From positions 124,001 through 188,000 of the forward strand of contig JAEPQO010000002.1 of NCBI GenBank assembly GCA_017640505.1: DNA of 64,000 nt, given 5' to 3'. The translations under genes were made by a program, and so were the position numbers. The DNA is from Rhodospirillales bacterium (GTDB taxonomy: Bacteria > Pseudomonadota > Alphaproteobacteria > Rhodospirillales > Casp-alpha2). Below, piece after piece: positions 38,939 to 54,898 of the stretch (its first letter is position 1; each line of letters opens with the position of its first letter). Below the pieces are notes generated by a model. That model made no database searches and was not told the DNA's origin. It saw nothing but the letters and a program-made list of their open reading frames with translations.

Positions 38939-40462
38939 ATGGATAAGGCGGCCGGTTCCCTCGGAAAAGCCATCGACCGTGTATTGATCGCCCTTGCGTG
39001 CGTTGCGGTTCTTTACGTCGTCGCGGCAGCGGTCGTTTACGGCATCTATCCTGGATACGTCGACCACGGTGAGCCGATCGTGGCCGCTGCGGCGTTCCGC
39101 ATGCTGGATGGCGCGCTCGTGTACCCGCCGTTCGATGGGCCCGATTTCACCAGTAACATTTACGGGCCGTTCACGTACCTTTTCAATGGGCTCGTCATGG
39201 CCATGTTCGGTGGCACGTCGCTTACCGGCAAGCTTGCCGGTTTGCTGGCGCTGCTGGGTGCGGTCCTCGCCGTTTGGGCGACCTACCGGCATCACGGGCC
39301 GCGGACCCTGGCCCTCGCGCTGCTGATGATCGCCGGTTTTCTGGTGCTGCTCGTGCCGTACTCGATCTGGAACCGTCCCGACCCCTTTCTCGTCGCCGCC
39401 GCGGCAATCGCCGTGTTGGCGGTCCGGTATCCACCAAAGGGCGCGCGCTGGCTCCTGTGGGTGCTGATCGGCGTCATCGGCGGCGTGGCATGCGGTTTGA
39501 AGCTTTATGGGCCGCTTTTCATCGCCCCGCTCGGGCTTTACGTCGCGCTCCGCGACAGAAGTGTCCTGTCGCTGGTCGTCATGACCGCTGCCGGTATCAC
39601 GACCGCGCTGGTGCCGTTCCTGCTGCCGATGTTTCCGCTTGAGAATTACGTCAAATGGTTCGGCATCGTCGCCGAGAAACCGACGGACGGCGAGATGGTC
39701 ACCAAGGCGTTCCGCTACGGTGTATTCTTCCTTTTGCCCGCGCTGGCGCTGCTGATCCGACGCTTCATGAGCTTGTCCCGTATGTCCGAAGCGTTGCAGG
39801 ATCCGGAAACCGTTTATGCCGGTGCGACCGTGATCGGCATGCTTCTTTGCGGCTATGTCGCATCCAAACCCGGTGCCGGCATGTATTACCTTTTGCCGTT
39901 TGCCGCACTATCGATCGACATGGCGGTGCGGTTCGGTGCCTCCTTTCCGGCGGACCGAAACGGCCGCGCGGCCGCCTTCGCTCCTGCGCTGGCCGCGGTT
40001 CTGGCGGCTGTCATGCTGGTGTCGGCGGTCCCGGTGCAGAAGCGGTTTTTCCGCGCCCTCGAATGGGACCGGGTGCAGTCCATCAAGGATGATCTGCTGG
40101 CCATCATGGCGCAGTACCCGGAACGGAAAATCCAGATGGCGGTCGGTTCGTCCATCGGCGGGTATCACAACACGCTACAGAAGACCGAGCTGATTTATGC
40201 CGGTCATCCGTACAACGTGGATTTCGGAGTTATGATCGAAACCAGTTTTCTCGGCATTCCGCTGTCCGACCCGCTGGTTGCAACGATTGCCGCGTGCGAG
40301 ACCGACATCTGGCTTGTACCCGAGGGCGAAGTGCCGCTGAGCCTGAACGGCTATTACGGTAACACGGTGGTCGCCGGCAATTTTCGGGACGCGTTCATGA
40401 CGGCATATGCCAAGGTCGGATCGACGGCCCATTTCGACCTGTGGGCGTGCCGTAAGAACTAG
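38939..40462 (+). CDS. GT-C-like integral membrane glycosyltransferase (GT39/ArnT-like layout)
   Basis: 507 aa with about ten hydrophobic segments. The first extracytoplasmic loop YPGYVDHGEPIVAAAAFRMLDGALVYPPFDGPDF has acidic residues in the place of the catalytic Asp of GT-C enzymes such as ArnT and PMT. A soluble C-terminal region (about 390-507) follows. It would use a lipid-linked sugar at the periplasmic face. Co-directional with the FkbM gene. Donor and acceptor unknown. Confidence 0.7.
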   Translation: MDKAAGSLGKAIDRVLIALACVAVLYVVAAAVVYGIYPGYVDHGEPIVAAAAFRMLDGALVYPPFDGPDFTSNIYGPFTYLFNGLVMAMFGGTSLTGKLAGLLALLGAVLAVWATYRHHGPRTLALALLMIAGFLVLLVPYSIWNRPDPFLVAAAAIAVLAVRYPPKGARWLLWVLIGVIGGVACGLKLYGPLFIAPLGLYVALRDRSVLSLVVMTAAGITTALVPFLLPMFPLENYVKWFGIVAEKPTDGEMVTKAFRYGVFFLLPALALLIRRFMSLSRMSEALQDPETVYAGATVIGMLLCGYVASKPGAGMYYLLPFAALSIDMAVRFGASFPADRNGRAAAFAPALAAVLAAVMLVSAVPVQKRFFRALEWDRVQSIKDDLLAIMAQYPERKIQMAVGSSIGGYHNTLQKTELIYAGHPYNVDFGVMIETSFLGIPLSDPLVATIAACETDIWLVPEGEVPLSLNGYYGNTVVAGNFRDAFMTAYAKVGSTAHFDLWACRKN

Positions 40463-41466
40463 GTGTTTCGCTTGAGACCGATCCAGCGCGCAAAGCAGAG
40501 GAATACTTCGCTCAGGTAATGATCGGTGTTGAAGTTGTCGCGGTCGACGCCGTCGAGCCCGTAGCCCGGGACATCTTCGGGCGGGTGGTAGGTGCCGAAC
40601 AGCTTGTCCCAGATCGTCAGGATCGACATGTTCTTGTTGAAATGGCGGGGTTCGGTCGAGTGGTGAATCCGATGCAGCGCTGGTGTCACGACGATGTATT
40701 CCGTCCATTTCGGCCAGTCGATCTTTGAATGGACCATCGACTGGTAGAACGCGTTGATCCCCATCCACGCGATCAGCACGCTCGGCTCGATCCCGAACAG
40801 CGAGAGCGACGCCGTGGTGTAGACGCGCGCCAGGTAATGATCCAGCGGGTGCGCGCGGAACGGCAGCAGCACGCCGAGATGCTCCGCCGAGTGATGAACC
40901 TTGTGCAGTTCGAAAAACCAGCGCGAGTGCAACAGCCGGTGCGTCCAGTAATTGCAGAACGTGATCGCGAGGACGAGCACGAAGAACTGCACAACCGGAT
41001 GCGTTCCGTGTATCAGGCTGAAATCCAGCCCAAGGGCGGTCATCGCATCGACATGCAAGGCGGTGCCGAGGGTCATCACGAACGTGACCAGCGTGGCGAC
41101 ACCGCTGACCCGAAGAAACAGGTAGAACAGATCGCTCCGGACCGAGCGGTTATCCCCTTCGATCACGAGGAACAGCGTGGAGTCCCGATACCCGAGACCT
41201 ATCGCCTCCACGACCAGGCAGATGACGGCGACGCCGACCATTGCCGTCGGGAACAGTAGAACATGCATGCCGGGCGTCTTGATGCCGAGGAATTCGTATA
41301 CCGGGGCGAGCGTATCGACATAGGGCCCGCCGAAAAACATCAGCCACGGCAACGCCGTGCCGACGATCAGGGAAGCGGCAAGGACGCCGATAAAATTCAA
41401 CAGGCCGCGTTTGCGCAGCTGCACGTGCTCGGCGAACCCTGTCATGGCAATCTGCAATGCGCTCAT
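40459..41466 (-). CDS. Sterol desaturase/fatty acid hydroxylase family protein
   Basis: 335 aa from the ATG at 41466. The di-iron His boxes are present: HRLLHSRWFFELHKVHHSAEH (HxxxH-type plus HxxHH) and HRIHHSTEPRHFNKN downstream, in a protein with four to five membrane segments. Members hydroxylate or desaturate membrane lipids using O2. Converges with and overlaps the previous gene by 4 bases, and is divergent from the methyltransferase gene. Substrate unknown; the neighbourhood suggests an envelope lipid. Confidence 0.88.
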   Translation of the reverse strand: MSALQIAMTGFAEHVQLRKRGLLNFIGVLAASLIVGTALPWLMFFGGPYVDTLAPVYEFLGIKTPGMHVLLFPTAMVGVAVICLVVEAIGLGYRDSTLFLVIEGDNRSVRSDLFYLFLRVSGVATLVTFVMTLGTALHVDAMTALGLDFSLIHGTHPVVQFFVLVLAITFCNYWTHRLLHSRWFFELHKVHHSAEHLGVLLPFRAHPLDHYLARVYTTASLSLFGIEPSVLIAWMGINAFYQSMVHSKIDWPKWTEYIVVTPALHRIHHSTEPRHFNKNMSILTIWDKLFGTYHPPEDVPGYGLDGVDRDNFNTDHYLSEVFLCFARWIGLKRNT

Positions 41467-41623
41467 GTGTCCTCTGCGCCGCCGGGGCGGGTACTCCGGA
41501 AATACCCCAACCAGATAACACCGGTCCGGGATTTGCTCAAGTTGCTCGACATTCCTGCGGGTGTAGGTCATGTTCCGGCGCGTTTTCGCGAAGGAACCGA
41601 TAGTCGGTTGTACGGGGGATATG

Positions 41624-42499
41624 ATGCGCAAATGTAACGCCTGCGGTCATCGTTACGACGAGGAAACCTGGACATGTCCGGCGTGCGGCCACGCACCCGG
41701 TCAGATCGCCGGATTCCCGACGATGGTCGAGGACAGCGGCGTCGAGCACCCGCGCGAATTCGACGAAGAGACCTATCGCCAGATGACGGCCTATGAGGAC
41801 GGCAGCTTCTACATCACCTCGCGGTTCGACCTGATGTACTGGTGTTTCCGGCGCTTTTTCCCGGATACCAAGCGATTCCTCGACTTTGGCGGCGGCACCG
41901 GATTCTGGCTTGAGGCACTTGCCACCCGGCATCCCGAAATCGACCTCTTCGGCAGCGATCTCGCGGTCGAATCGCTGCACAACATGAAGCGGCGGCTGGG
42001 CGACAAGGCGACGATTTTCCATACGGATGCCGAACATCTGCCGTTCGACGCCCATTTCGACCTGATCGGGTCTTTCGACGTGGTCGAGCACATCGAAGAC
42101 GATATCGGCGTCATTGAGCAGTTCCGCCCTGCCCTTCGTGACGGCGGCGGAATCATGCTGACCGTGCCGCAGCACATGTCGCTCTGGTCCGTGCTGGATG
42201 ACAAGACCGGTCACAAGCGCCGATACGTGGGCGACGAGCTCGCGCGCAAAGTCAGGAAGGCCGGCTTCGACGTGTTGCTGGATACCAGTTTCATGGCCTC
42301 GCTGTTCGTGCCGCAGTGGATTTCCCGCCGCTTCATGAGCCAGAGCGCGGACAGCGTCGCGGACACCGAACATTCTCTCCCGGGGCCTCTCAATGCGGCA
42401 TTCCGAGCGGCGCTTGTCGCGGAACTTGCTACGATCAAGGCGGGTGCGAGGTATCCGTTTGGGGGCATGCGAATTGTCGCCGCCCGGAAGCTTTCCTGA
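41624..42499 (+). CDS. SAM-dependent methyltransferase with N-terminal zinc ribbon
   Basis: 291 aa from the second of two tandem ATGs (41621, 41624), 5 bases after a GGGGG tract. The N-terminus holds two CxxC knuckles (CNACGHRYDEETWTCPAC). The class I methyltransferase fold begins near residue 80: FLDFGGGTGFWLEAL, then GSDLAVESL, FDLIGSFDVVEHIEDD and GGGIMLTVPQH. This ribbon-plus-methyltransferase form is frequent in surface-glycan loci. It lies just upstream of the deoxy-sugar cluster and may belong to it. Confidence 0.82.
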   Translation: MRKCNACGHRYDEETWTCPACGHAPGQIAGFPTMVEDSGVEHPREFDEETYRQMTAYEDGSFYITSRFDLMYWCFRRFFPDTKRFLDFGGGTGFWLEALATRHPEIDLFGSDLAVESLHNMKRRLGDKATIFHTDAEHLPFDAHFDLIGSFDVVEHIEDDIGVIEQFRPALRDGGGIMLTVPQHMSLWSVLDDKTGHKRRYVGDELARKVRKAGFDVLLDTSFMASLFVPQWISRRFMSQSADSVADTEHSLPGPLNAAFRAALVAELATIKAGARYPFGGMRIVAARKLS

Positions 42500-42576: not shown

Positions 42577-42636
42577 ATGTTGTATACGCCGGACAATCCT
42601 GAAGGTTCAATTCCGCATGCGTCCGGCATCTGGTGA
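42577..42636 (+). CDS. Candidate 19-aa leader peptide or small ORF
   Basis: Starts with ATG at 42577, preceded by GGGAGG with 6 bases of spacing, the best ribosome-binding site in the 180-base gap before the TPP enzyme gene. Encodes MLYTPDNPEGSIPHASGIW. No codon run that would suggest classic attenuation. Could be a leader peptide for the sugar operon or chance. Confidence 0.3.
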   Translation: MLYTPDNPEGSIPHASGIW

Positions 42637-42681
42637 TCGGTCGGCGGCGCGGGCGAAATCCACGAATGGGGACGAGGGTTT

Positions 42682-44574
42682 ATGAAGCTAGCTGACTATG
42701 TCATCGATTTTCTGGGCGATCAGGGAATCGACAAGGTTTTCGTTTTGTACGGATCGGCGAACGGCCATCTGATCGATGCGTTTACGCGCGCCGAAAAGAC
42801 CGAATACGTGGCAACCATGCACGAACAGGGCGCGGGTTTCGCCGCAGAGTGCTTTGGCCGTGTTAAAGGTATTCCGGGTGCCGCCATTGCGACGTCGGGT
42901 CCGGGGGCACTCAACCTCGTCAACCCGATCGCCAACTGCTTCTATGAATCGGTGCCGTGCATCTTCATTACCGGCAACATCAATTCCCAGTTCATGCGCC
43001 CCGATCCCAGCGTGCGTCAGGTCGGTTTCCAGGAAACCGATGTCGTCTCGATCGTCGAATCGATCACCAAGAACGCGGTCATGATTACCGATCCGAAGGA
43101 CATCCGCTATGAGATGGAAAAAGCCTTCCATCTCGCCAAGGAAGGCCGTCCCGGCCCCTGCGTGATTGATATCCCGATCGACATCCAGAAGGCCGAGATC
43201 GAGCCGGACGAGCTGTTCAGCTTCGATTCAGACGCCGCTCGCGTGCACTATTCGACCGATGTCGTCGATCAACAGGTTGAGCAGTACATCGAGGACCTGA
43301 AAAAAGCCGAACGTCCGACGTTCATCGTCGGCGGCGGCGCGCGCATCGGCAACGCGGTCGATCTGGTCCGAGAAATCGCCGAAGTGGCGATGGTCCCCGC
43401 CTACCCCACCTGGAACGCGCTCGACATCATTACCTCCGATTTCGAGTATTACGGTGGCCGCATCGGCACCTATGGCGGCGCCGGGCGCAATTTCGGCATC
43501 CAGAATTCGGACCTGCTGATGGGCATCGGTTCGCGGATTTCCGGGCGTATCACGGGCGGCAACATTCACACCTTCGCCCGCGAAGCGAAGAAGTACGTCG
43601 TCGACCTCGACAAGGCGCTGCTGCAGCCGCGCCTCCAGCAGGTGCCGTTCGACGTCAACATCCTCTGCGACGTGCGCGACTTCTGCGAGCGTCTGCTGAA
43701 GCGCCTCAAGGAAGAGCGCGCCGCTGGCAACCTGCCGACACACGAAAAGTGGAACGCGCAGTGCCGCGAATGGCGGGTCAAGTACGACCCGGTCCGTCCG
43801 GAAATGTTCGAGGACGGCGCCTACACCCACGACAACAAGGAATACGTGCACCCGTATGCGTTCATGCGGCGCCTTTCCGAGAAGATGAGCCCGAACGACA
43901 TTCTGGTGTGCGACCTCGGTGGGACGTCCGTGGTTGTGGCGCATGCGTTCGAGACCAAGTTCGGCGAGCTTTACCTGACCAACAACGGTAACGCGCCGAT
44001 GGGTTTCTCGATGTGTGCCGCGATGGGGGCCTGGATGGCCGATCCGAGCCGCAACGTGGTCGCCATTATCGGTGACGGCGGCATGATCCTGAACATCCAG
44101 GAACTGCAGACCATGAAGAATTACGGGATGAAGGTGAAGACGTTCATCCTCAACAACCACATCTACGGCATCACCAAGGCGTTCCAGGAAACCAACTTCC
44201 AGGGCCGCTGCGAGGCCTGCGGCCCGGTCGGCTACAACCCGCCGAACTTCGTCAACGTGGCCAAGGGTTTCGACGTGCAGACGTTCGAGATTTCCAAGAA
44301 CGCCGAGATCGACAGCATGATCGACACCGTTATGGCATTCGACGACGGCCCGGTGGTGTGCGACGTCAACATGCACGAATACCACACCTACGAGCCGCGT
44401 ATCTTCGGCTGGTCGACACCTGTCGAGGATATGTACCCGTATCTGCCGCGCGACGAGTTCCGCCAGAACATGTACATCGAGCCGATCGAGGGCTGGGAAA
44501 ATCCGGCGATGCCGGACATCGTCAACCCGAACTCCGCCACGCCGGGTACCGAAGGTACCCGCACCATGGAGTAA
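42682..44574 (+). CDS. Thiamine-diphosphate-dependent enzyme (acetolactate-synthase-like)
   Basis: 630 aa with three domains of the acetolactate synthase/pyruvate decarboxylase fold. Catalytic Glu48 sits in MHEQGAGFAAE; SGPGALNLVNPIANCFYESVP is the usual pyrimidine-domain block; the diphosphate motif GDG (about 463) to NN (about 491) is intact as GDGGMILNIQ...FILNN. The central domain is FAD-type in position but the adenine site is not clear. First gene of the sugar cluster, so it is unlikely to be the valine-pathway enzyme. By analogy with YerE, it could transfer a two-carbon unit from pyruvate to a 4-ketosugar. That is inference. Confidence 0.85.
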   Translation: MKLADYVIDFLGDQGIDKVFVLYGSANGHLIDAFTRAEKTEYVATMHEQGAGFAAECFGRVKGIPGAAIATSGPGALNLVNPIANCFYESVPCIFITGNINSQFMRPDPSVRQVGFQETDVVSIVESITKNAVMITDPKDIRYEMEKAFHLAKEGRPGPCVIDIPIDIQKAEIEPDELFSFDSDAARVHYSTDVVDQQVEQYIEDLKKAERPTFIVGGGARIGNAVDLVREIAEVAMVPAYPTWNALDIITSDFEYYGGRIGTYGGAGRNFGIQNSDLLMGIGSRISGRITGGNIHTFAREAKKYVVDLDKALLQPRLQQVPFDVNILCDVRDFCERLLKRLKEERAAGNLPTHEKWNAQCREWRVKYDPVRPEMFEDGAYTHDNKEYVHPYAFMRRLSEKMSPNDILVCDLGGTSVVVAHAFETKFGELYLTNNGNAPMGFSMCAAMGAWMADPSRNVVAIIGDGGMILNIQELQTMKNYGMKVKTFILNNHIYGITKAFQETNFQGRCEACGPVGYNPPNFVNVAKGFDVQTFEISKNAEIDSMIDTVMAFDDGPVVCDVNMHEYHTYEPRIFGWSTPVEDMYPYLPRDEFRQNMYIEPIEGWENPAMPDIVNPNSATPGTEGTRTME

Positions 44575-44582
44575 GCGGCGCG

Positions 44583-45758
44583 ATGTTCTATCCGCTCGCG
44601 GCGTCCAGCTGGGACGACAAGGAAATCGCCGCCATTCAGCGCATCATCGATGGCGACATGTACACCATGGGGCCGGAGGTGGCCGCCTTCGAAGCCGAAT
44701 TCGCCGCCTACCATGGCAAAAAATACGGCGTCATGGTGAACTCGGGTTCGAGCGCGAACCTGATTGCCGTCGCGGCGCAATTCTTCAAGAAAGACAACCC
44801 CTTGAAGCGCGGTGATGAAGTGATTGTTCCGGCGGTTTCGTGGGCGACGACGTATCATCCGCTGCAGCAGTACGGCCTCAAGCTGAAGATCGTCGATGTC
44901 GAACTCGACACGCTCAACATGGACGTCTCGCAGCTCGAAGATGCGCTATCGCCGGACACCAAGATGCTGGTCGCCGTCTCGATCCTCGGCAATCCGTGCG
45001 AACTCGACGTCATGCGGGCGTTTTGCGACAAGCACGGCCTTGTTTTCATGGAAGACAACTGCGAGAGCCTGGATGCGGAACTGAACGGCAAGAAAGCCGG
45101 TTCGTTCGGCGATGTGAATACGTCGAGCTTCTTCTTCTCGCACCACATCGCGACCATGGAAGGCGGTATGATCGTCACCGACGATCTGGAACTCTGCCAC
45201 ATCATGCGCGCGCTCAGGGCGCACGGCTGGACCCGGGACCTGCCCAAGGACTCGCCCATTTTCGAGAACCGGGACGACGACTTTTTCGAGGCCTACCGCT
45301 TCATCCTGCCGGGCTACAACGTGCGGCCGACCGAAATGGCGGGTGCCATCGGGCGCGAACAACTGAAGAAACTTCCCGGTTTCACGGCGCAGCGGCGCAA
45401 GAACCTGGCGCTGCTCACGGAACTGCTTGGCGGCGATGAACGTTTCATCATCCAGCGTGAAAACGGCGTCCATTCCAGCTTCTGCTTCCCGATCATCCTC
45501 AACCCGGCGATGAACATCGACCGCAAGCGCGTGTTCGATGCGTTGGTGGCCGCGGATATCGGGTACCGGATCATCACCGGCGGCTGCATCCTGCGCCACG
45601 ACGTGATGAAGTTCTACGATTACGAGACCGTCGGCGAGATCGCCAACGCCAACATCGCGCACGACAACGGCTTCTTCTGCGGCAACCACCCGCACGACCT
45701 GGAGCCGCAGATCCGCAAGCTCTACGAAGTGCTGGACGAGGCCGCGCAGCCCGCCTGA
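44583..45758 (+). CDS. DegT/DnrJ-fold PMP-dependent sugar 3-dehydratase (ColD-like)
   Basis: 391 aa from the ATG at 44583 (GGAG upstream, 8 bases after the previous stop). DegT fold with YGVMVNSGSSANL, EDNCESLDAEL for PLP pyridine contact, and SSFFFSHHIATMEGG where aminotransferases have the Schiff-base Lys. The Lys is replaced by His187-His188. ColD (GDP-4-keto-6-deoxymannose 3-dehydratase) uses His at this place, at position 188 as I recall. There is no Cys cluster of the DdhC/E1 type, so it should be the Fe-S-free, glutamate-using form. Predicted to remove the C3 hydroxyl of a 4-ketosugar nucleotide. Confidence 0.85.
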   Translation: MFYPLAASSWDDKEIAAIQRIIDGDMYTMGPEVAAFEAEFAAYHGKKYGVMVNSGSSANLIAVAAQFFKKDNPLKRGDEVIVPAVSWATTYHPLQQYGLKLKIVDVELDTLNMDVSQLEDALSPDTKMLVAVSILGNPCELDVMRAFCDKHGLVFMEDNCESLDAELNGKKAGSFGDVNTSSFFFSHHIATMEGGMIVTDDLELCHIMRALRAHGWTRDLPKDSPIFENRDDDFFEAYRFILPGYNVRPTEMAGAIGREQLKKLPGFTAQRRKNLALLTELLGGDERFIIQRENGVHSSFCFPIILNPAMNIDRKRVFDALVAADIGYRIITGGCILRHDVMKFYDYETVGEIANANIAHDNGFFCGNHPHDLEPQIRKLYEVLDEAAQPA

Positions 45759-45779
45759 CGAATTAGGAAAGGCTCACCC

Positions 45780-46724
45780 ATGAGCGATAAACTGAACATT
45801 CTTGTCACCGGCGGTGCCGGTTATCTGGGGTCCATCATGGTGCCGGCGTTTCTGGACCGGGGGCACCGGGTCACCGTTCTCGACAACTTCATGTTCAAGC
45901 AGAACCCCCTCGCCCATGTCTGCGCCAATCCGGACTTCGACGTGGTGCGCGGCGATGCCCGCGACGAAGGTCTGATCAAGGGATTGATCAAGGACGCCGA
46001 CGTGGTGATCCCGCTGGCCGCCCTTGTCGGCGCGCCGCTCTGCAACAACGACCAGCTCGGCACCACGAGCATCAACCGCGACGCGGTCTTGATGCTGACC
46101 GAGCTGCTGTCCAAGGATCAGCGGATCCTGATGCCGATCACCAATTCCGGCTACGGTATCGGTGAAAAAGGAAAATTCTGTACCGAGGAGACGCCGCTCC
46201 GGCCGATCTCGCTCTACGGCACGACCAAGGTCGAAGCCGAGGCCGCCGTGCTTGAGCGTGGCAACGCGATCAGCTTCCGGCTCGCCACCGTGTTCGGCAT
46301 GGCACCGCGCTTCCGGCTCGATCTGCTGGTCAACGATTTCGTCTATCGCGCCGTCAACGACCGCGCGGTGGTGCTGTTCGAAGCCGACTTCAAGCGCAAC
46401 TACATCCACATCCGCGACGTGGCACGTGCCTTTATCCACGGCCTAGAGAACTTCGAGAGCATGAAGGACGAGCCCTATAACGTCGGCCTTTCGGATGCGA
46501 ACCTGTCCAAGCGCGAGCTTTGCGAGAAGATCCGTGAACATCTGCCGAACTTCGTGTTCATGGAAGCCCCCATCGGCGAAGACCCGGACAAGCGCGACTA
46601 CATCGTCTCGAACGAGAAGATCGAGGCGACCGGCTTCAAGCCTGCCTATTCCCTCGACGACGGGATTGTGGAACTGATCAAGGGCTATCGCATGATCCGC
46701 AACAGCCAGTACGGAAATGTGTGA
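45780..46724 (+). CDS. Extended SDR, NAD-dependent epimerase/reductase
   Basis: 314 aa. NAD motif TGGAGYLG at residues 11-18, ITNSGYGIG for the catalytic Ser position and YGTTK for the Tyr-x-x-x-Lys pair, then RNYIHIRDVARAFIHGL. The TDE motif of 4,6-dehydratases is absent, so it is more likely an epimerase or 4-ketoreductase. Preceded by AGGAAAGG and 21 bases from the dehydratase gene, in the same operon. A role reducing the 4-keto group after deoxygenation or branching is plausible. Confidence 0.85.
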   Translation: MSDKLNILVTGGAGYLGSIMVPAFLDRGHRVTVLDNFMFKQNPLAHVCANPDFDVVRGDARDEGLIKGLIKDADVVIPLAALVGAPLCNNDQLGTTSINRDAVLMLTELLSKDQRILMPITNSGYGIGEKGKFCTEETPLRPISLYGTTKVEAEAAVLERGNAISFRLATVFGMAPRFRLDLLVNDFVYRAVNDRAVVLFEADFKRNYIHIRDVARAFIHGLENFESMKDEPYNVGLSDANLSKRELCEKIREHLPNFVFMEAPIGEDPDKRDYIVSNEKIEATGFKPAYSLDDGIVELIKGYRMIRNSQYGNV

Positions 46725-46798
46725 TCGCCCTGAAGTGGTGACGCTGGCCCGCCGAAGCGGTATAAAATCGCAGTTAAACCGGACTTAACGGAGCCCGA

Positions 46799-48301
46799 AT
46801 GACCTCGACCCGACCCGATCTCGTCCTCGTCAATCCCGGCGGCCGCGAACGCATTTACCAGCAGCTCGGCAACGAGTTGACGGCGATCGAGCCGCCGCTC
46901 TGGTGCCGCCTGATCGGCGGCTACGTGCGCGACAAGGGCCGCGAGATCGTGATCCTGGATTCCGAGGCCGAAAGCATGGGGCCGGAAAGTGTCGCCCAGC
47001 GCATCAAGGAACTGAATCCGAAACTGGTCGCCATGATCGTGTTCGGCCACCAGCCGTCGGCCTCCACGCAGCAGATGGTCGCCGCCGGCGAAACCACGCG
47101 CGTCATCAAGGACGTGACCCCGGATATTCCGGTGATCTTCGTTGGCGGGCACGTCTCCGCGCTTCCGGAGCAGACGCTCAGCGAGGAAGCGGCGGAATAC
47201 GCCTGCAAGGGCGAAGGACCGGAAACGGTAAACGGGTTGCTGGACGCCATCGATGCGGGATCGTCCGATGACGCCTTAAGCGACGTGCCGGGCCTCGTCT
47301 GGATGAAGGACGGCGCTTTCACGATCAATCCGGCGGCGCCGCTGATCAAGGACCTGGACGCGGAACTGCACGGCGACGTGTGGGACCTGTTGCCGATGGA
47401 GAAATACCGCGCCCATAACTGGCAGTGTTTCGGCGAGCTTGAAAACCGGATGCCTTACGCGTCGATCTATACGTCGCTCGGCTGCCCGTTCAAATGCGTG
47501 TTCTGCTGCATCAACGCGCCCTTCGACATCAACCGGTACCGCATGCGCAAGCCCGAGAAGGTGGTCGAGGAAATCGCCATGCTGCGCGAGAAATACGGCG
47601 TGAAGACCTTCAAGATCATCGACGAGATGTTCGTCCTCAACGAACGCCATGTGATGGCCGTCTGCGATGGCATTATCGAGCGCGGCATCACGGACCTGAA
47701 CATCTGGGCCTACGCGCGGGTCGACACCGTGAAACCGCAGATGCTGGAAAAGCTGCGCAAGGCAGGGTTCCAGTGGCTGGCACTGGGCATCGAGTCCGGC
47801 TCCGATCTGGTTCGTGACGGCGCCGACAAGGCCTTCGACCAGGAAGAAATCGTCGGTATCGTCCGCATGATTCAGAAAGCCGGCATCAAGGTCGCCGGGA
47901 ACTTCATCTTCGGCCTGCCCGACGACGATATGGAGAGCATGCAGGCGACACTCGACCTCGCGGTGGAACTCAACTGCGAATACGCCAACTTCTATTCGGC
48001 GATGGCCTATCCCGGCTCGCCGCTCTATGCGATGGCGATCCAGAACGACTGGCCGCTGCCGGAAAGCTGGGCCGGGTATTCGCAGCACAGCTATGACTGC
48101 CGCCCGCTGCCAACGGAAAAGGTCTCCGCGGCCGAGGTGCTTCGTTTCCGCGACCTGGCGTTCCACGAATATTTCGAAGGCAAGCGTTACCTCGACATGG
48201 TGACGCAACAGTTCGGCTGGGACACGCGCAAACATATCGAGGAAATGGCTGAACACCGCCTCAAGCGCCGTCTCGTCGAGGAACTGGAGGCAGCGGAGTG
48301 A
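46799..48301 (+). CDS. B12-binding-domain radical SAM protein
   Basis: 500 aa. The N-terminal Rossmann-like domain (residues 1-135) reads PDLVLVNPGGRE...VAMIVFGHQPSAS...VIFVGGHVSALPE, matching BchE-type cobalamin-binding domains. The radical SAM core has CPFKCVFC (CX3CX2C) near residue 230 and GIESGSD. A C-terminal helical tail follows. Relatives methylate unactivated carbons or phosphinate groups. In the middle of the sugar operon it may C-methylate or rearrange the sugar. Substrate unproven. Confidence 0.85.
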   Translation: MTSTRPDLVLVNPGGRERIYQQLGNELTAIEPPLWCRLIGGYVRDKGREIVILDSEAESMGPESVAQRIKELNPKLVAMIVFGHQPSASTQQMVAAGETTRVIKDVTPDIPVIFVGGHVSALPEQTLSEEAAEYACKGEGPETVNGLLDAIDAGSSDDALSDVPGLVWMKDGAFTINPAAPLIKDLDAELHGDVWDLLPMEKYRAHNWQCFGELENRMPYASIYTSLGCPFKCVFCCINAPFDINRYRMRKPEKVVEEIAMLREKYGVKTFKIIDEMFVLNERHVMAVCDGIIERGITDLNIWAYARVDTVKPQMLEKLRKAGFQWLALGIESGSDLVRDGADKAFDQEEIVGIVRMIQKAGIKVAGNFIFGLPDDDMESMQATLDLAVELNCEYANFYSAMAYPGSPLYAMAIQNDWPLPESWAGYSQHSYDCRPLPTEKVSAAEVLRFRDLAFHEYFEGKRYLDMVTQQFGWDTRKHIEEMAEHRLKRRLVEELEAAE

Positions 48302-48313
48302 CAATGCGGTCCG

Positions 48314-49057
48314 ATGTCTGAGACCGCCCTTTCCAACATCGACGTCGTCGTTCTGGCCGGCGGACTGGGGACGCGCATCCAGCCCGTACTTGGCGATGTG
48401 CCCAAGCTGCTGGCGCCGGTCAACGAGCGCACCTACCTCGATTATCTGCTCGACTGGCTGCAAGGTTTTGGCGCCCGGCGCGTGATCCTCAGCCTTGGTC
48501 ATCAGGCGACGCGTATCGTCGACTATGTGACGGCGATGCCGCGTGACGGTATGGAAATCGTTCCCGTCATCGAAGACGCGCCGCTGGGCACCGCCGGTGC
48601 GCTCCGGCACGTCAGACCGCATGTTCAAACCGGCATTTCACTGGTGATGAATGGCGACAGTTGGATCGATGCCGATCTCGGCATGCTGGTGCAGGCACAC
48701 GAGGCCGAAGGCGCACCGGCGACGCTTCTGTGTGTGCGGGTACCGGACGCCGGGCGTTTCGGACAGATCGAGACCGACTCGGCCGGGCGGATTCGTGCGT
48801 TTCGCGAGAAAGACCCGGATGCCGGCGCCGGCCTGATCAACGCGGGCGTCTATGCGTTCGGGCCGGAAGCTTGGGATTTGCTGGCGGACATGGCGGGCCC
48901 GTCGCTTGAACGTGACGTTTTTCAGACCCTGCCGCCCTCCTCGCTTGCCGCTTACGACGCCGGTGACGTAACTTTTATCGACATCGGCACGCCTGACAGC
49001 CTGGCCCGTGCAGCCCGGGTGATCGGTGGTGCTGCCGCAGACAGGGGGACGACATGA
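48314..49057 (+). CDS. hddC: Sugar nucleotidyltransferase (HddC-like)
   Basis: 247 aa. Pyrophosphorylase signature VVLAGGLGTRIQPVLGDVPKLLAPV, then DAPLGTAGAL and VMNGDSWIDADLG with the metal Asp. Similar in length and layout to D-glycero-alpha-D-manno-heptose 1-phosphate guanylyltransferase. The stop overlaps the ATG of a GHMP kinase gene of HddA type, the usual hddC-hddA pairing, which supports a GDP-heptose route. The base specificity (GTP or CTP) is not readable. Confidence 0.75.
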   Translation: MSETALSNIDVVVLAGGLGTRIQPVLGDVPKLLAPVNERTYLDYLLDWLQGFGARRVILSLGHQATRIVDYVTAMPRDGMEIVPVIEDAPLGTAGALRHVRPHVQTGISLVMNGDSWIDADLGMLVQAHEAEGAPATLLCVRVPDAGRFGQIETDSAGRIRAFREKDPDAGAGLINAGVYAFGPEAWDLLADMAGPSLERDVFQTLPPSSLAAYDAGDVTFIDIGTPDSLARAARVIGGAAADRGTT

Positions 49058-50058
49058 TTATCTGCCGGACACCGTTTCGTGTCTCGCTCTTCGGCGGCGG
49101 AACCGACTACCCGAAATGGTACGAACAGCACGGCGGCGCCGTCCTCGGCTTCGCCATCGACAAGTACTGTTACATCTCGGTCCGGCGCCTGCCGCCGTTC
49201 TTCGAACACAAGCACCGGATCGTCTATTCGGTGGTCGAAAACGTGAAGTCCATCGACGAAATCCAGCACCCGGCCGTCAAGGGCGTGCTGTCGGAACACA
49301 AACCCGACGAAGGCGTGGAAATCCACCACGACGGCGATCTGCCGGCGCGTTCGGGGCTCGGTTCGTCGTCGTCCTTTACCGTCGGCCTGACCAATGCGCT
49401 GGCCGCGTTCAAAGGCAAGATGATTTCCAAGCGCGATCTGGCGCGCGAAGCCATCCGCATCGAACACGAGGTCATCAACGAGAAAGTCGGTTGCCAGGAT
49501 CAGATCTGGGCGGCCTACGGCGGGCTCAACAGGATCGATTTCCTGAAAACCGGCGATTTCGATGTACAGCCGGTGATGGTCGACCGCGACCGCCGCGAAG
49601 ACCTGCAGGACCACCTGCTGCTGGTCTTCACCGGCCTTTCGCGCCTCGCCCCCGTGATGGCGGAAAAGCAGATCGAGAACATCGATGCCCGCGAAAAACA
49701 GCTTTCCGCCATGCATGCCATGGTCGACGAGGCACAGGCGATCTTGGTCGACGAAAACCGCCCGATCACGGACGTCGGCAAGCTGCTGGACCAGTCATGG
49801 CAGCTGAAGCGCGAGCTCGCTGATGGCGTGACGACGCCGCTGGTCGATGAAATCTACGAGGCGGCCATGGGTGCAGGTGCATCCGGCGGCAAGTTGCTTG
49901 GTGCCGGCGGCGGCGGTTTCATGCTGTTCATCGTCGCACCTGAAAAGCAGGCCAAGGTGCGTGCCGCGCTGAAGGATCTGGTATCGGTCAAGATCGGGAT
50001 CGACAACGTCGGTTCCAAGATCGTCGTTTATGAACCGGACGGGCTCGAATACGCCTAG
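49054..50058 (+). CDS. hddA: GHMP kinase (HddA-like heptose 7-phosphate kinase)
   Basis: 334 aa. N-terminus IICRTPFRVSLFGGGTDYPKWYEQHGG is the HddA pattern. The ATP loop is LPARSGLGSSSSFTVGLTNAL near residue 97, and the C-terminal motif is GAGGGGFMLFI. HddA phosphorylates D-glycero-D-manno-heptose 7-phosphate at O1. gmhA is not in the window; the phosphatase step may be done elsewhere or by the monophosphatase-family protein downstream. Confidence 0.8.
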   Translation: MIICRTPFRVSLFGGGTDYPKWYEQHGGAVLGFAIDKYCYISVRRLPPFFEHKHRIVYSVVENVKSIDEIQHPAVKGVLSEHKPDEGVEIHHDGDLPARSGLGSSSSFTVGLTNALAAFKGKMISKRDLAREAIRIEHEVINEKVGCQDQIWAAYGGLNRIDFLKTGDFDVQPVMVDRDRREDLQDHLLLVFTGLSRLAPVMAEKQIENIDAREKQLSAMHAMVDEAQAILVDENRPITDVGKLLDQSWQLKRELADGVTTPLVDEIYEAAMGAGASGGKLLGAGGGGFMLFIVAPEKQAKVRAALKDLVSVKIGIDNVGSKIVVYEPDGLEYA

Positions 50059-50127
50059 GTGCTGCAAACCTTGACACTTTCGTGTCGGCGCGGATATTGA
50101 CGCCATCGACTTTCCGGGGGATCCGAC

Positions 50128-51081
50128 GTGACCGACGCGCGCAATGACAAGAGCATGATTTCGCTGGTGTTTTCGTTTCGCAACGAAGCGGACGTGCTGG
50201 AAGAACTGATCGCGCGGGTCACCAAGATGTTTGCCGGCGTCGGCTGTCCGTACGAGGTCATTTTCGTCAACGACCTCTCCACCGACGATTCGCTCAAGAT
50301 CCTCGAGAAACACGCCGCCGCCAACAAGGCGATCAAGATCATCAACATGTCGCGGAACTTCGGCGTCAGCGAGTGCGTGCTGGCCGGCATGAAGTACGCC
50401 AAGGGCGACGCCATCATCTACATGGACACCGATCTCCAGGATCCGCCCGAGGTCATTCCCGAAATGATCGAAAAATGGCGCGAAGGCGCCGACCTCGTCT
50501 ATACGCGGCGCCTCAGCCGCGACGGCGAGACCGCTTTTCGCCTGTGGGCGACCAAGGTGGCGTACAAGATCATCAATTTCCGTTCCGAGATCGAACTGCC
50601 GATCGAGGCCGGCGATTTTCGGCTGCTGTCGCGCCGGGCCGTCGATAAGCTCCTGACGCTGGAAGAATCACAGCCTTACCTGCGCGGGATCACGCAGTGG
50701 ATCGGTTTCGAACGCGCCGAAGTACCGTATCGCCGCCAGCCGCGTGCCGCCGGCGAAACCCATTTCCCGGGCGTGTTCTCACGCGGTCCCGTGAAGACCT
50801 TCGTCGACGGACTGACGTCGTTTTCCATGTTCCCGCTCCACTTGGTTCTGTATGCCGGGCTTGCTGGCACCGCGTTGGGTGCGGGCGGTCTGGTGCTCAC
50901 CGGTTTGGCCGCATTGATCGGCTGGGGCTGTGCGGTGGCGGGCTGGGTGTTCTTCGCCCTGCTGCTGTGGGGCGGGCTGATGAGTGGTATGGGGATTCTC
51001 GGGCTCTATATTTCGAGGATCTACCGCGATACCCGCAATCGCCCGCTCTATATCGTCAAGGATACCGTCAATTTCGACTGA
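50128..51081 (+). CDS. Family 2 glycosyltransferase, GtrB/ArnC type
   Basis: 317 aa from a GTG at 50128 with GGGGG 7 bases upstream. GT-A fold with SLVFSFRNEADVLEELI, EVIFVNDLSTDDSL and IIYMDTDLQDPPEV (DxD-like), followed by two C-terminal membrane helices (about 228-250 and 262-290). GtrB/ArnC/dolichol-phosphate-mannose-type enzymes load a sugar onto polyprenyl phosphate. It would transfer the sugar made by the cluster to a lipid carrier, which the GT-C-like protein upstream could then use. Confidence 0.88.
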   Translation: MTDARNDKSMISLVFSFRNEADVLEELIARVTKMFAGVGCPYEVIFVNDLSTDDSLKILEKHAAANKAIKIINMSRNFGVSECVLAGMKYAKGDAIIYMDTDLQDPPEVIPEMIEKWREGADLVYTRRLSRDGETAFRLWATKVAYKIINFRSEIELPIEAGDFRLLSRRAVDKLLTLEESQPYLRGITQWIGFERAEVPYRRQPRAAGETHFPGVFSRGPVKTFVDGLTSFSMFPLHLVLYAGLAGTALGAGGLVLTGLAALIGWGCAVAGWVFFALLLWGGLMSGMGILGLYISRIYRDTRNRPLYIVKDTVNFD

Positions 51082-51150
51082 CCGGCCGCGAGGCCGGATT
51101 TCGACTGACTGACCGCGCGGTCAGATTTCGACTGACTGACGTTACGTCAG
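51071..51150. repeat. Three tandem ~27-bp repeats, each ending in a different perfect hairpin
   Basis: Copies at 51071-51097, 51098-51124 and 51125-51150 each begin ATTTCGACTG and end in an inverted repeat: CCGGCC-GCGA-GGCCGG, CTGACCGC-GCGGTCAG and CTGACGT-T-ACGTCAG. The first copy overlaps the 3' end of the glycosyltransferase gene and its stop; the last covers the stop of the convergent phosphatase gene. The hairpin arms differ between copies yet each stays perfectly self-complementary. Confidence 0.75.
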
Positions 51151-51987
51151 TTCGTCGGCGCGGATCGCCAGTGCCGCGAAGTCGTCCCACTGCGCGCGCG
51201 CGCCACATACCCCGAGCGACTGCGAATTCAGCTTTGTCGACAGCCGGTAAGGTTCGTCTGCGTCGATACGCTGCGCCCTGCCCCCGGCTTCCTCGACGAT
51301 CAGCACGCCGGCCGCGTGGTCCCATGGCTTGAGCAGCCCGCCGTAGCGCGCAAAATCGAGCTTGCCGGCGGCGATATCCATGTATTCACGCCCGACGCAG
51401 CGGTAGCGTTCGGTGATCTTCGGTAGCGGCTGCGACAGCTCGCGGGCCGCCCGTTCCAGCCGGCCGCGCAGCTTCCATCCCGCCGTCATGGTGCCGTCGG
51501 TGAACGGTTTTTCCAGGCGTGCAGGCTGTGTCACCGTCCCTGCGGCATCGCTTATCCACGTGCCGCCGCCACGGATCGCCCAAACCGCGTCTTTTGCGAC
51601 CGGATCGATGATCCATCCCGCGGTGATTTCTCTGTCCATGGCGAGCGCAACGATGACCGTGAACGGCGATTTGCCGTGCGCGAAGTTGTACGTGCCGTCG
51701 ACCGGGTCGACGATCCAGACCGGCCCCGGCTCGGCCAGTGCCTTAAGCATCCCGTGGTCGGCCTCGTAGCCTTCCTCGCCGACGACGCGGCTATCGGGCA
51801 GCAGTGCCGTCAGGTGCCGGCTCAGTGCTGCTTCGGATTCCTTGTCGGCGATGGTAACGAGGTCACCCGGCTTTTTTTCCGAGATTTCATGATCGGCAAG
51901 CGAGCGGTAGCGCGGCAGAATTTCCGCATCCGCCACCTCGCGCATGATGTCGAGCACCTGCGCCGGATTGTCGAGAACGTGCTGCAT
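51142..51987 (-). CDS. Inositol monophosphatase family phosphatase
   Basis: 281 aa. Metal-binding motifs: VGEEGYE, WIVDPVDGTYNFAHG (DPVDGT) and LLKPWDHAAGVLIVEEAGG (WDHAAG). The family includes inositol monophosphatases, CysQ and sugar phosphatases. Convergent with the sugar operon and starting at the stop of the small gene upstream (TGATG). It might dephosphorylate a sugar phosphate intermediate or adenosine 3',5'-bisphosphate. Confidence 0.9.
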   Translation of the reverse strand: MQHVLDNPAQVLDIMREVADAEILPRYRSLADHEISEKKPGDLVTIADKESEAALSRHLTALLPDSRVVGEEGYEADHGMLKALAEPGPVWIVDPVDGTYNFAHGKSPFTVIVALAMDREITAGWIIDPVAKDAVWAIRGGGTWISDAAGTVTQPARLEKPFTDGTMTAGWKLRGRLERAARELSQPLPKITERYRCVGREYMDIAAGKLDFARYGGLLKPWDHAAGVLIVEEAGGRAQRIDADEPYRLSTKLNSQSLGVCGARAQWDDFAALAIRADELT

Positions 51988-52512: not shown

Positions 52513-53892
52513 TCACCGCGGTTCCAGCGGCGTTTCGAACTTCTGCTCGAAGCGGGCGGCGACATCGGGTGCGATACGCAGGTCGAGGTGGACGCCCTGC
52601 TCGCCGTCCTCGCGCGACAGCACTTCGGCGCGTTCGTACAACCATGCCAGCGCGGCGCCGTTCTCGAACGGCAGGTCGATGGCGCGGTGCAGGTAATGGC
52701 TGGTCAGGATATCGTCGACCACGTCCAGCAGTTCAGCGCAGCCCGTCCCCATCATGGCCGAAATCGGCACGGCGGCCTGATTGCCGAAACGCGCCCGGTT
52801 GGTGACGAATTCGCGGCTTTCGTCGTCCAGCAGGTCGATCTTGTTGAGCGCCTCGACCACCGGTTTGGCGTGAGCATCGTCGTCGTTGGCGGCGCCGCCC
52901 GCCGGCACCACGTGCAGTTCCGCCATCACGTTCAGCACGTCGGCTTTCTGGGCCTCGGTATCCGGGTGCGCGACATCGCGGACATGGACAATAACATCGG
53001 CCTCGATCACCTCTTCCAGCGTGGCATGGAAAGCCTGCACCAGCTCGTGCGGCAGGTTGGAAACGAACCCGACCGTGTCGGAAATGATGGCATCGCGGCC
53101 GCTCGGCAGCCGGAGACCCCGCATGGTCGGATCGAGGGTCGCGAAAAGCTGGTCCTGCGCCACCACGCCGGCTTCGGTTAACCTGTTGAAAAGCGTGGAT
53201 TTTCCGGCGTTTGTGTAGCCGACAAGCGCGATCACCGGATGCGGCACCCGGCGCCGGGCAGCGCGGTGCAGATCGCGCGTGCGCGAGACGTCGGCGAGGT
53301 CCTTTTTGAGCCTGTCGATGCGCTGGCGGATCAGGCGCCGGTCGGTTTCGATCTGGGTTTCGCCGGGACCGCCCATGAAGCCGACACCGCCGCGCTGGCG
53401 CTCAAGGTGGGTCCAGGACCGCACAAGCCGGCCCAGTTGATAGGTCAGCTGCGCGAGTTCGACCTGCAGCCGCCCTTCCCGCGTGCGGGCGCGCGCGCCG
53501 AAGATTTCCAGGATGAGCCCGGTCCGGTCGAGGACCTTGGCGCTCCAGTCACGTTCCAGGTTGCGCTGCTGCACCGGCGTCAGCTGCGCATCGACGATGA
53601 TGACCGGTTTCGGCGCATCTTCGTCGGCGTGATAAAGCTCGTCGAGGACGTCCGAGATGCGCTCGACAACGCCACCGCCGATCAGGGTCGCGGGCTTCGG
53701 CTGTTTGATCGTGAAGGCTTCGGCGTGCGCAATATCGAGGTCGATGGCCATGGCAAGACCGACGGCTTCCTCAAGCCGGGCCTCGCGCGCGCGGCCATCG
53801 GTCGCGTCTGCGCCGATTTCAGGGTGCACGACAACGCAGCGTTCGCGCTGCGGACGCCGATCGATGCCGCCGCCAGCGCCCTGCTTACTCAC
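52513..53892 (-). CDS. hflX: GTPase HflX
   Basis: 459 aa from a GTG at 53892 that overlaps the hfq stop (GTGA). The N-terminal HflX domain ends in [22 protein letters not shown]; the G domain has G1 [10 protein letters not shown]2 and G3 [10 protein letters not shown], and G4 NKID. HflX splits stalled or heat-damaged ribosomes. hfq-hflX is the usual order in proteobacteria. Confidence 0.96.
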
Positions 53893-54146
53893 GCATCCTC
53901 GGCTGCGTCGTCCTTTTCCGGCTCGAACAGCTGAACGGGCGTCGACGGCATAATCGTCGAGATCGCGTGTTTGTAGACAAGCTGAGTGTGACCGTCCCGC
54001 CGCAGCAGGACCGAGAAGTTGTCGAACCAGGTCACGATGCCCTGAAGCTTGACGCCATTGACCAGAAACACGGTGACCGGCGTCTTGTTCTTGCGAATGT
54101 AATTAAGGAAAACGTCCTGCACGTTTTGGGGTTTATCTGCGGACAT
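53889..54146 (-). CDS. hfq: RNA chaperone Hfq
   Basis: 85 aa. Sm1 motif [37 protein letters not shown] and Sm2 [10 protein letters not shown] are both complete, with a short acidic C-terminal tail. Forms hexamers that pair small RNAs with mRNAs. Encoded between a HAD phosphatase gene and hflX. Confidence 0.97.
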
Positions 54147-54238
54147 TCTTTATTCCCCCTGTTCGTCGCCACATTTTGCAGCGGTTTATAGGTTTTTCCG
54201 TGCCTTAGGCGCGGATTTTTTGTTCCAAGCGATGGAGA

Positions 54239-54895
54239 TTACATGGATTGCAGGAAATTGCAAAGCGATTGGCAGTTCCCGAAATGATGGACCGGCGGGT
54301 GTGCGCCGAACTCCCCGTCACCGGGCGCTTCGGGGCGCAACAGCACGGGAATGCATCCCGTGTTGACCGCGCATGTCAGGTCGATGTCGGCATCGCCCAC
54401 GAACCACACCTTCGGCCCCGGGTTGAAGTCGCCCTGTTCGAGCGCCATGTGCACGGGTGCCGGGTCCGGCTTGTCCCGGTCCGCGTCGAACGCGCCGATC
54501 AGGGCCGAGAAATGCCGGTGCCAGCCGAGCGCCTTGGCTTCCTTGCGCAGGTAATCGCCACGCTTGTTGGAAACGATGCTGAGATAAAATCCGGCGTCCG
54601 CCAGTTGTTTCAGCATGTCGTCCGCGCCCTCGGTGGGCTTGATCGCGTCGGCGTGAATATTGGCATAGCGCTTGTAGAATACGTCGGACGCCGCTTCCCA
54701 TTCGTCACCGAAGATCTTGGGGAAGCGGTCGCGGACGGATTCCCTGACGTTGGCGCGGGTTTCGTCGAGGGTCCATTCCCTGAGGCCGAAGGCGCGGTAC
54801 GTGGTGTTCAGCGCGTCGTGGATCACGGGCCAGCTGTCGACCAGCGTGTTGTCCCAGTCGAAGATGAGGGCGCGGGGTTTCTCTGATGCGGTCAC
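54239..54895 (-). CDS. HAD-superfamily hydrolase (Gph-like)
   Basis: 218 aa. Motif I FDWDNTLVDSW, motif II IVSNKRGDYL and motif III-IV VGDADIDLTCAVNTG are intact, with an inserted helical cap (about residues 20-85). Phosphoglycolate-phosphatase-like, but substrate range in this family is wide. Begins 3 bases after the trkA stop, in the ntr-trkA-hfq run. Confidence 0.87.
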   Translation of the reverse strand: MTASEKPRALIFDWDNTLVDSWPVIHDALNTTYRAFGLREWTLDETRANVRESVRDRFPKIFGDEWEAASDVFYKRYANIHADAIKPTEGADDMLKQLADAGFYLSIVSNKRGDYLRKEAKALGWHRHFSALIGAFDADRDKPDPAPVHMALEQGDFNPGPKVWFVGDADIDLTCAVNTGCIPVLLRPEAPGDGEFGAHPPVHHFGNCQSLCNFLQSM

Positions 54896-54898
54896 GGT

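Follow-up and report, generated by a model that had tools for sequence, protein, structure and literature searches.

The 64,000-nucleotide stretch of DNA analysed here (called the window throughout; positions 124,001 to 188,000 of contig JAEPQO010000002.1 of a Rhodospirillales bacterium, assembly GCA_017640505.1) comes from a genome of 3.95 Mb. On its + strand, at 42682-51081, lie seven co-directional genes that very probably specify an activated, branched heptose, followed by a convergent phosphatase gene. A preliminary description of this DNA had listed the same seven genes and the phosphatase, and gene calls and domain matches bear this roster out. The genes are given below, together with an upstream glycosyltransferase gene (ThDP, thiamine diphosphate; SDR, short-chain dehydrogenase/reductase; SAM, S-adenosylmethionine; GT2, family 2 glycosyltransferase). 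The start of the second gene was set at the ATG at 44583, eight bases past the stop of the first, where the alignment to ColD begins.

38939-40462, + strand: PMT_2 membrane glycosyltransferase (PF13231, 2.5e-06), a possible user of a polyprenyl-phosphate sugar
42682-44574, + strand: YerE/JanthE-like ThDP carboligase of 630 amino acids (PF02776/PF00205/PF02775, decarboxylase superfamily), predicted to add an acyl, probably acetyl, branch at C4
44583-45758, + strand: ColD-type 3-dehydratase of the DegT fold (best solved chain ColD, 2gms)
45780-46724, + strand: Cj1427-like SDR (best solved chain 6vo6), predicted C4 dehydrogenase of GDP-D-glycero-D-manno-heptose
46799-48301, + strand: cobalamin-binding radical-SAM enzyme (PF02310 and PF04055), proposed to act in the last tailoring step
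48314-49057, + strand: HddC-like sugar-1-phosphate nucleotidyltransferase, predicted to use GTP (solved-chain matches 6jq8/5xhw)
49054-50058, + strand: HddA-like D-glycero-D-manno-heptose 7-phosphate kinase of the GHMP fold (solved-chain matches 3k85, 4usk, 4n3o)
50128-51081, + strand: PgfS/ArnC-type GT2, predicted to load the sugar onto polyprenyl phosphate (NF047588 217 bits and ArnC model 131.6 bits, both below cut-off)
51142-51987, - strand: HisN/IMPase-type phosphatase (TIGR02067 114 bits, below cut-off), probably outside the pathway

In a search of solved chains, the ThDP enzyme matches JanthE best (8rph; E 4e-98, 34% identity), with acetolactate synthase next at 4e-77, and it has the three-domain ThDP fold of the decarboxylase superfamily together with the GDG...NN motif (IIGDGGMILNIQELQTMKNYGMKVKTFILNN in its translation). 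JanthE is reported to resemble YerE and to couple acyl units to ketones (PMC12247030, PMC12188165). Of two other identities that the preliminary description had raised, IlvB does not fit and oxalyl-CoA decarboxylase fits less well than JanthE. Against TIGR00118, whose cut-off is 538 bits, the enzyme scores 356 bits as against 803 for the genome's own IlvB, which is encoded elsewhere, and in a tree it groups with its counterparts at three related loci (L043, L034 and L095; support 100/99) and then with JanthE (98/97), leaving IlvB outside; its reading as an IlvB was rejected on these grounds. That tree holds 11 sequences, with JanthE as the sole representative of the YerE-like family and with oxalyl-CoA decarboxylase and YerE left out; the former was compared through solved chains, where its best chain reaches 110 bits as against 332 for JanthE. 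The three counterparts are 74% (L043), 69% (L034) and 49% (L095) identical to the window's protein, and all three loci carry the radical-SAM gene. Searches of the plasmid collection (at 1e-90) and of the other 288 genomes of the class (at 1e-120) found no counterpart of the enzyme. Its assignment as a YerE/JanthE-like carboligase, with acyl addition to a ketone at C4 predicted, is well supported by homology.

The same is true of the second protein as a ColD-type 3-dehydratase: it matches ColD (2gms) at E 1.5e-118 and 49% identity, and its motif SHHIATMEGG aligns to SHHIATMEGG in ColD, with His where transaminases have the Schiff-base Lys. The SDR aligns to 6vo6, which we take to be Campylobacter jejuni Cj1427, at E 3.5e-115 and 55% identity over 307 residues; the next-best solved match stands at 3.7e-22, so that 6vo6 is the sole close one. 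Cj1427 is reported to oxidise GDP-heptose directly at C4 and, together with a C3-dehydratase in vitro, to give GDP-3-deoxy-4-keto-heptose (PMC10680097). The SDR of the window is likely the C4 dehydrogenase of GDP-D-glycero-D-manno-heptose. The preliminary description had remarked on the absence of a 4,6-dehydratase and had supposed that one step is encoded elsewhere or is different; because a Cj1427-like SDR is predicted to oxidise C4 directly, no such enzyme is probably missing, and that supposition was rejected.

For the supply of the GDP-heptose, the best solved chains of the nucleotidyltransferase (6jq8 and 5xhw) are titled ‘Putative 6-deoxy-D-mannoheptose pathway protein’, and those of the GHMP kinase are named heptose-phosphate or sugar kinases. 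The nucleotidyltransferase scores 146 bits with NF052502 (mannose-1-phosphate guanylyltransferase; below cut-off) and 104.5 of the 300 bits that NCBIfam sets as the equivalog cut-off of NF049965 (HddC), and the kinase 140.5 of 600 bits with NF049969 (HddA). Because these scores lie below the NCBIfam cut-offs, the two proteins are filed as HddC-like and HddA-like and not as members. Elsewhere in the genome there are a gmhA-like gene (183.8 bits, below the cut-off of 209.45) and a gmhB-like gene (46% identity).

A pathway can be proposed from these parts. The kinase and the nucleotidyltransferase, with the gmhA- and gmhB-like genes, would make GDP-D-glycero-D-manno-heptose; the SDR would oxidise its C4; the ColD-like enzyme, dependent on pyridoxal or pyridoxamine phosphate, would take off O3 to give GDP-3-deoxy-4-keto-heptose; and the ThDP enzyme would put a two-carbon acyl unit on C4, with pyruvate as the most likely donor, giving an acetyl-bearing tertiary alcohol. 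We consider these four steps, taken together, highly probable, the first three by homology to enzymes of reported activity and the fourth by homology, by the tree and by the recurrence of other ThDP enzymes described below. A GDP-heptose-derived, 3-deoxy, C4-branched sugar, the core of what had been suggested earlier, finds support in the homology to Cj1427, ColD and JanthE and in the linkage of the genes. Family membership further predicts that the GT2 would load the product on polyprenyl phosphate.

Parts of this scheme have counterparts in known systems. In the YerE-type pathways of yersiniose A and erwiniose, too, C4 of a 3-deoxy 4-keto nucleotide sugar receives an acyl unit through a ThDP enzyme (PMC12247030), but those pathways use CDP-hexoses, whereas the set in the window is predicted to work on a GDP-heptose and then to employ a radical-SAM enzyme. 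The modification of GDP-heptose in C. jejuni shares the first steps, with the Cj1427 C4-dehydrogenase and the C3-dehydratase of serotype HS:5 reported to make GDP-3-deoxy-4-keto-heptose in vitro (PMC10680097). However, C. jejuni reduces the 4-ketone, and its Cj1427 (HS:2) and C3-dehydratase (HS:5) come from different serotypes, while in the window the two genes are neighbours.

Relatives of the cluster were collected with an alignment of the radical-SAM protein. At least 546 stretches encode a relative; the best 80, named L026-L105, make up 81 stretches together with the window, and 49 of the 80 have at least 6 kb upstream and at least 4 kb downstream and form a well-flanked subset (31 were dropped). 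The record titles of the 80 loci carry about a dozen phylum-level names, and since the core recurs across these groups, the gene set is more than a chance arrangement. The GHMP kinase was found at 64 of the 80 loci, the SDR at 51, the nucleotidyltransferase at 45 and ColD (at least 40% identity) at 35, and a ThDP gene of any kind at 55, namely E1 alpha/beta genes (44), a partial E1 (2), a split transketolase (6) or a YerE-type gene (3). Among the 49 well-flanked loci these figures are 42 for ThDP genes (E1 36, transketolase 4, YerE-type 2), 41 each for SDR and GHMP kinase, 35 for the nucleotidyltransferase and 43 for DegT. ThDP, SDR, DegT, GHMP and radical-SAM genes stand together in 36 of 50 well-flanked stretches (the 49 loci and the window); the DegT is of the His type in every one of the 36, and 31 of them also have a nucleotidyltransferase gene. 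Over the 81 stretches, DegT is present in 56, with His at the Lys position in 52 of them, in several motif forms; the residue could not be assigned at L081, and L046, L068 and L077 have a Lys-type copy alongside the His-type one.

Unguided clustering of the neighbours returned, as families present at 13 or more stretches, only the radical-SAM protein, GHMP kinase, DegT, SDR, nucleotidyltransferase, E1 alpha, E1 beta, a GDP-fucose-synthase-like SDR (25) and GT2 (13). Rarer families comprise one of about 190 amino acids (10 stretches), kin of GmhA (9) and an NtrX-like regulator (9). With tblastn the GDP-fucose-synthase-like SDR, a name that plasmid records also carry, was found at 26 of the 81 stretches; it has no copy in the window's cluster and one elsewhere in the genome.

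The preliminary description had tied its proposal to the conservation of both the ThDP enzyme and the dehydratase next to the heptose genes. This holds for the dehydratase, with DegT genes at 43 of 49 well-flanked loci, and fails for the ThDP protein itself, which recurs at 3 of 80; because a ThDP enzyme of another kind is found at 52 more of the 80 loci, it is the function that seems to be kept. At L026, for instance, the closest relative of the window's cluster (ColD 87%, SDR 90% and radical-SAM protein 83% identical, with GHMP, nucleotidyltransferase, GT2 and phosphatase genes), E1 alpha and beta genes replace the YerE-type gene. The three kinds of ThDP enzyme require at least eight changes on a quick tree of the 81 radical-SAM proteins, which has Shimodaira-Hasegawa-like approximate likelihood-ratio (SH-aLRT) support only and from whose change count the rows without a ThDP gene were left out. 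We read this as one function, the transfer of a C2 unit to C4, filled by exchangeable ThDP enzymes of different kinds. E1-type ThDP enzymes are reported to carry out C2 branching in antibiotic sugars: KbDH-alpha/beta of Kibdelosporangium (E1 alpha/beta, alpha-KADH2) places C2 units onto keto sugars (PMC12247030), in the manner suggested for the E1-type genes at 46 of the 55 ThDP-bearing related loci, although it serves antibiotic sugars, unlike the setting of the window's cluster.

A more distant set was seen in four genomes from the family to which G289 belongs (L121-L124), where a radical-SAM family of about 40% identity is accompanied by a split transketolase, a different DegT and heptose genes; the DegT of L121 and L123 is of the His type, and this is likely a sister pathway with another ThDP donor. 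There were 17 matches among the 399 genomes of the order to which the genome of L096 belongs, and the plasmid scans gave matches in Azospirillum, Sinorhizobium and Solidesulfovibrio only. Plasmid pDMC1 of Solidesulfovibrio magneticus RS-1 carries genes for the radical-SAM protein, kinase, E1 pair, DegT, SDR and nucleotidyltransferase, next to one for a phospholipid carrier-dependent glycosyltransferase. At L212, L214 and L215 (A. lipoferum 4B AZO_p6, A. ramasamyi and S. magneticus pDMC1) the radical-SAM and kinase genes have a NUDIX hydrolase gene in their vicinity, and on the two Azospirillum plasmids among these about 20 kb separate the SDR and E1 genes from the radical-SAM gene.

The linkage extends to whole genomes. 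Among 289 genomes of the class, the radical-SAM gene (cut-off E 1e-60) was found in 13 and the SDR (E 1e-100) in 24, and all 13 fall within the SDR set (hypergeometric 2e-16, with genomes treated as independent). The fetched stretches of all 13 hold a ThDP gene and a His-type DegT. In G044, G096, G099 and G274 the SDR and the radical-SAM gene are on separate contigs, of draft assemblies that do not fix the true distance; there the off-contig SDR is accompanied by ColD in four of four, by the GHMP and nucleotidyltransferase genes in three of four and by E1 in two of four (the contig of G099 being short), and an E1 pair stands beside the radical-SAM gene in G044 and G099. Conversely, 11 genomes have the SDR and no radical-SAM match at E 1e-60, of which G056, G128 and G164 (completeness at least 95%) and G226 (70%) hold E1 alpha/beta, DegT, SDR, GHMP and nucleotidyltransferase genes together. 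In these genomes the pathway accompanies the radical-SAM gene wherever that gene is found but also occurs without it, which suggests a late tailoring step for the radical-SAM enzyme.

The protein in question combines a B12-binding domain (PF02310) with a radical-SAM domain (PF04055), as expected for the cobalamin radical-SAM family, and the cysteines of its CX3CX2C motif (C229, C233, C236) are invariant in 13 aligned sequences. Its best NCBIfam models are BchE (175.5 bits), HpnJ (156.5), ApyD (135.9) and a ladderane-type model (122.3), and the best methylase model reaches 111; the BchE and HpnJ models match all 13 aligned members. A preprint (PMC13142503) names BchE, HpnJ and ladderane synthase as cobalamin radical-SAM enzymes whose reactions form or rearrange rings and involve no methylation, and since BchE and HpnJ are the best models, ring closure is favoured here. 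HpnJ, BchE and OxsB, non-methylating enzymes of ring formation or rearrangement, act on other substrates, and the window's protein scores far below the HpnJ and BchE family cut-offs. At several loci (L025:6323-7870, L030, L036, L087, L092 and L102) the first gene has beside it another B12-binding radical-SAM gene, of about 25% identity.

More specifically, the radical-SAM enzyme would abstract a hydrogen from C7 and couple C7 to the ketone carbon, C8, giving a cyclopentane and a caryose-type 4,8-cyclo-3,9-dideoxynonose. We advance this fifth step as a suggestion only slightly less probable than its negation. The best explanation of the whole, a GDP-activated 3-deoxy 4-C-branched heptose that is then closed to a caryose-type sugar, is offered just as tentatively. 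In its fullest form the proposal is a redox-neutral radical addition, in which the hydroxymethyl carbon C7 of the heptose is joined to the ThDP-placed ketone at C4 to give a carbocyclic nucleotide sugar; this would be a route to caryose-type sugars across about a dozen phylum-level groups, with the ThDP partner repeatedly exchanged, and we hold it a shade more loosely again.

Caryose is a sugar of the lipopolysaccharide (LPS) of Pseudomonas (Trinickia) caryophylli, and we know of no described biosynthesis for it, nor of a described pathway with this gene set. By chemical reasoning, its carbon count, its 3- and 9-deoxy positions, its quaternary C4 and its C4-C8-C7 ring match the predicted steps. 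In the open-licence literature nothing on caryose synthesis was found by title or abstract start, although several papers treat mycobacterial lipooligosaccharides bearing caryophyllose; likewise, nothing fitting a radical-SAM step in the synthesis of sugar nucleotides or branched LPS sugars was found there by title and abstract start, and no pathway with this gene set was found in that literature, most subscription journals lying outside its scope.

Several observations weigh against the proposal. No ThDP gene is in range at 25 of the 80 loci (7 of the 49 well-flanked), the split transketolases at 6 of the 80 are expected to give a hydroxyacetyl and not an acetyl branch, and L057, L076 and L085 show a Lys-type DegT only. 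The NCBIfam equivalog cut-offs are far from reached (HpnJ 156.5 of 577.6 bits, BchE 175.5 of 481.35), and in a fold search with an AlphaFold model of the radical-SAM protein (pLDDT 88) the closest solved fold was the diol dehydratase AprD4 (Z 28.4, root-mean-square deviation 3.8 over 416), followed by MgmA (Z 26.7), CysS (25.9) and OxsB (25.6). In a hand comparison of configurational prefixes, C2 and C6 of caryose are as in D,D-heptose and C5 is opposite, so that a C5 epimerase would be needed for caryose itself, and the window's cluster holds none. The GDP-fucose-synthase-like SDR could be this epimerase; the product of the window's genes may be the 5-epimer of caryose or something else.

A last point of this kind comes from bradyrhizose. 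The cluster for this sugar in photosynthetic Bradyrhizobium (PMC4743980) resembles the window in having heptose-type genes, a nucleotidyltransferase, SDRs and a ThDP pair, but the ThDP pair is a split transketolase, an HldE-like gene is present, and there are no ColD-like or radical-SAM kin within about 10 kb; because radical-SAM kin are absent from this interval, ring closure may not require a radical enzyme. The cluster was located by the published primers for the gdh gene (PMC4743980), both of which are exact in L141 (a genome of 7.80 Mb, of the genus of G641) and have one or two mismatches in L142-L144; the forward primer, with as many as 3 mismatches allowed, hit 13 of the 265 genomes. 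The L142 and L143 clusters have HldE-like, nucleotidyltransferase, GmhA-like, two SDR and split transketolase genes, and one of the two, scanned additionally, has Zn-dehydrogenase, APH-type and methyltransferase genes. Over L141-L144, the region at the gdh primers comprises HldE-like, nucleotidyltransferase, GmhA-like, SDR, split transketolase, Zn-alcohol dehydrogenase and methyltransferase genes. Bradyrhizose, a C10 sugar, may be composed of a heptose, a C2 and a C1 unit. The gene content of its cluster supports the pairing of a heptose with a ThDP enzyme as a general path to bicyclic sugars. The three genomes with radical-SAM kin at 40% (G321, G372, G641) were considered as bradyrhizose makers and rejected: the gdh primers are absent from the fetched stretches at up to 6 mismatches, reaction-centre genes are absent in two of the three, and the DegT of L121 and L123 has a His-His motif.

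Three other readings keep the branched heptose or something close to it and give the radical-SAM enzyme a different task. It could be a C-methylase acting on an unactivated carbon of the same branched heptose; cobalamin radical-SAM enzymes are reported to be predominantly methylases (PMC13142503), methylase models such as Sden_1168 and MJ_0865 also match all 13 aligned members, and MgmA, CysS and TsrM are close by fold, but the models of the non-methylases BchE and HpnJ, at 175 and 156 bits, beat the best methylase model at 111, and we regard this reading as unlikely. Equally unlikely, in our estimate, is an AprD4-like diol dehydratase or epimerase acting at the C6-C7 end of the branched heptose. 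AprD4, whose structure holds the aminoglycoside precursor paromamine, ranks first by fold and second by sequence among solved chains; yet its NCBIfam model reaches 71.5 bits as against 175 for BchE, and because no solved BchE or HpnJ is among the fold matches listed, the fold ranking cannot weigh these two enzymes. It is also conceivable, and considerably less probable than either, that there is no ring and that the product is a yersiniose analogue, an open 3-deoxyheptose with a 4-C-acetyl or 4-C-hydroxyethyl group, with the radical-SAM enzyme working on another substrate. This would suit the four class genomes with E1, DegT and SDR genes and no radical-SAM match at E 1e-60 (one of them 70% complete) and the loci with the radical-SAM gene alone in range (L044, L053), but all 13 of the 289 class genomes that have the radical-SAM gene have the Cj1427-like SDR as well, and no reductase was recognised beyond the Cj1427-like and GDP-fucose-synthase-like SDRs among the families at six or more stretches, some of which are unassigned. 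That the ThDP enzyme is an ordinary acetolactate synthase or another housekeeping carboligase, here by chance, is very improbable, as its TIGR00118 match falls below the cut-off, the genome has its IlvB elsewhere, and the tree places it with JanthE and with proteins of radical-SAM loci.

Around the cluster, the phosphatase was rejected as a fixed member, in departure from the preliminary description: because its kin occur at 3 of the 80 loci only, it is probably a chromosomal neighbour. Downstream (window 52513-56275 and beyond) lie HflX-, HAD-, TrkA- and NtrX-like housekeeping genes, and since kin of the 52513-56275 block occur in 5 to 9 related stretches, the insertion site may be shared. 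Upstream, at 40459-42499, a fatty acid hydroxylase gene (- strand) and a methyltransferase gene (+ strand) share about 60 bases at the start of the latter, whose product has a zinc-ribbon-like N-terminus with CxxC.

As to the fate of the sugar, kin of the GT2 occur at 14 of the 80 loci and kin of the PMT_2 membrane glycosyltransferase at 7, both a minority, and we infer that it is used in an envelope glycan. The proposed pathway, with ring closure by the radical-SAM enzyme as its tentative last modification, would bring GDP-heptoses, besides hexoses, within YerE-type sugar branching, and would give a natural setting to GDP-3-deoxy-4-keto-heptose, which was made by mixing the enzymes of two serotypes (PMC10680097). 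The repeated swap of ThDP enzymes from different superfamilies in an otherwise stable pathway is unusual in itself. Cultured Azospirillum, Magnetospirillum-type strains, Tistlia and Solidesulfovibrio magneticus RS-1 carry either the whole set or the radical-SAM gene and some of its partners, and because these are named cultured bacteria the sugar is open to direct search. The branching part would be a variation on YerE-type branching, and on a bold reading the radical step would be categorically new: if ring closure by the radical-SAM enzyme is true, it would explain the bacterial synthesis of carbocyclic sugars such as caryose, give radical-SAM enzymes a new kind of C-C bond formation and provide a first genetic route to rare ring-bearing sugars.

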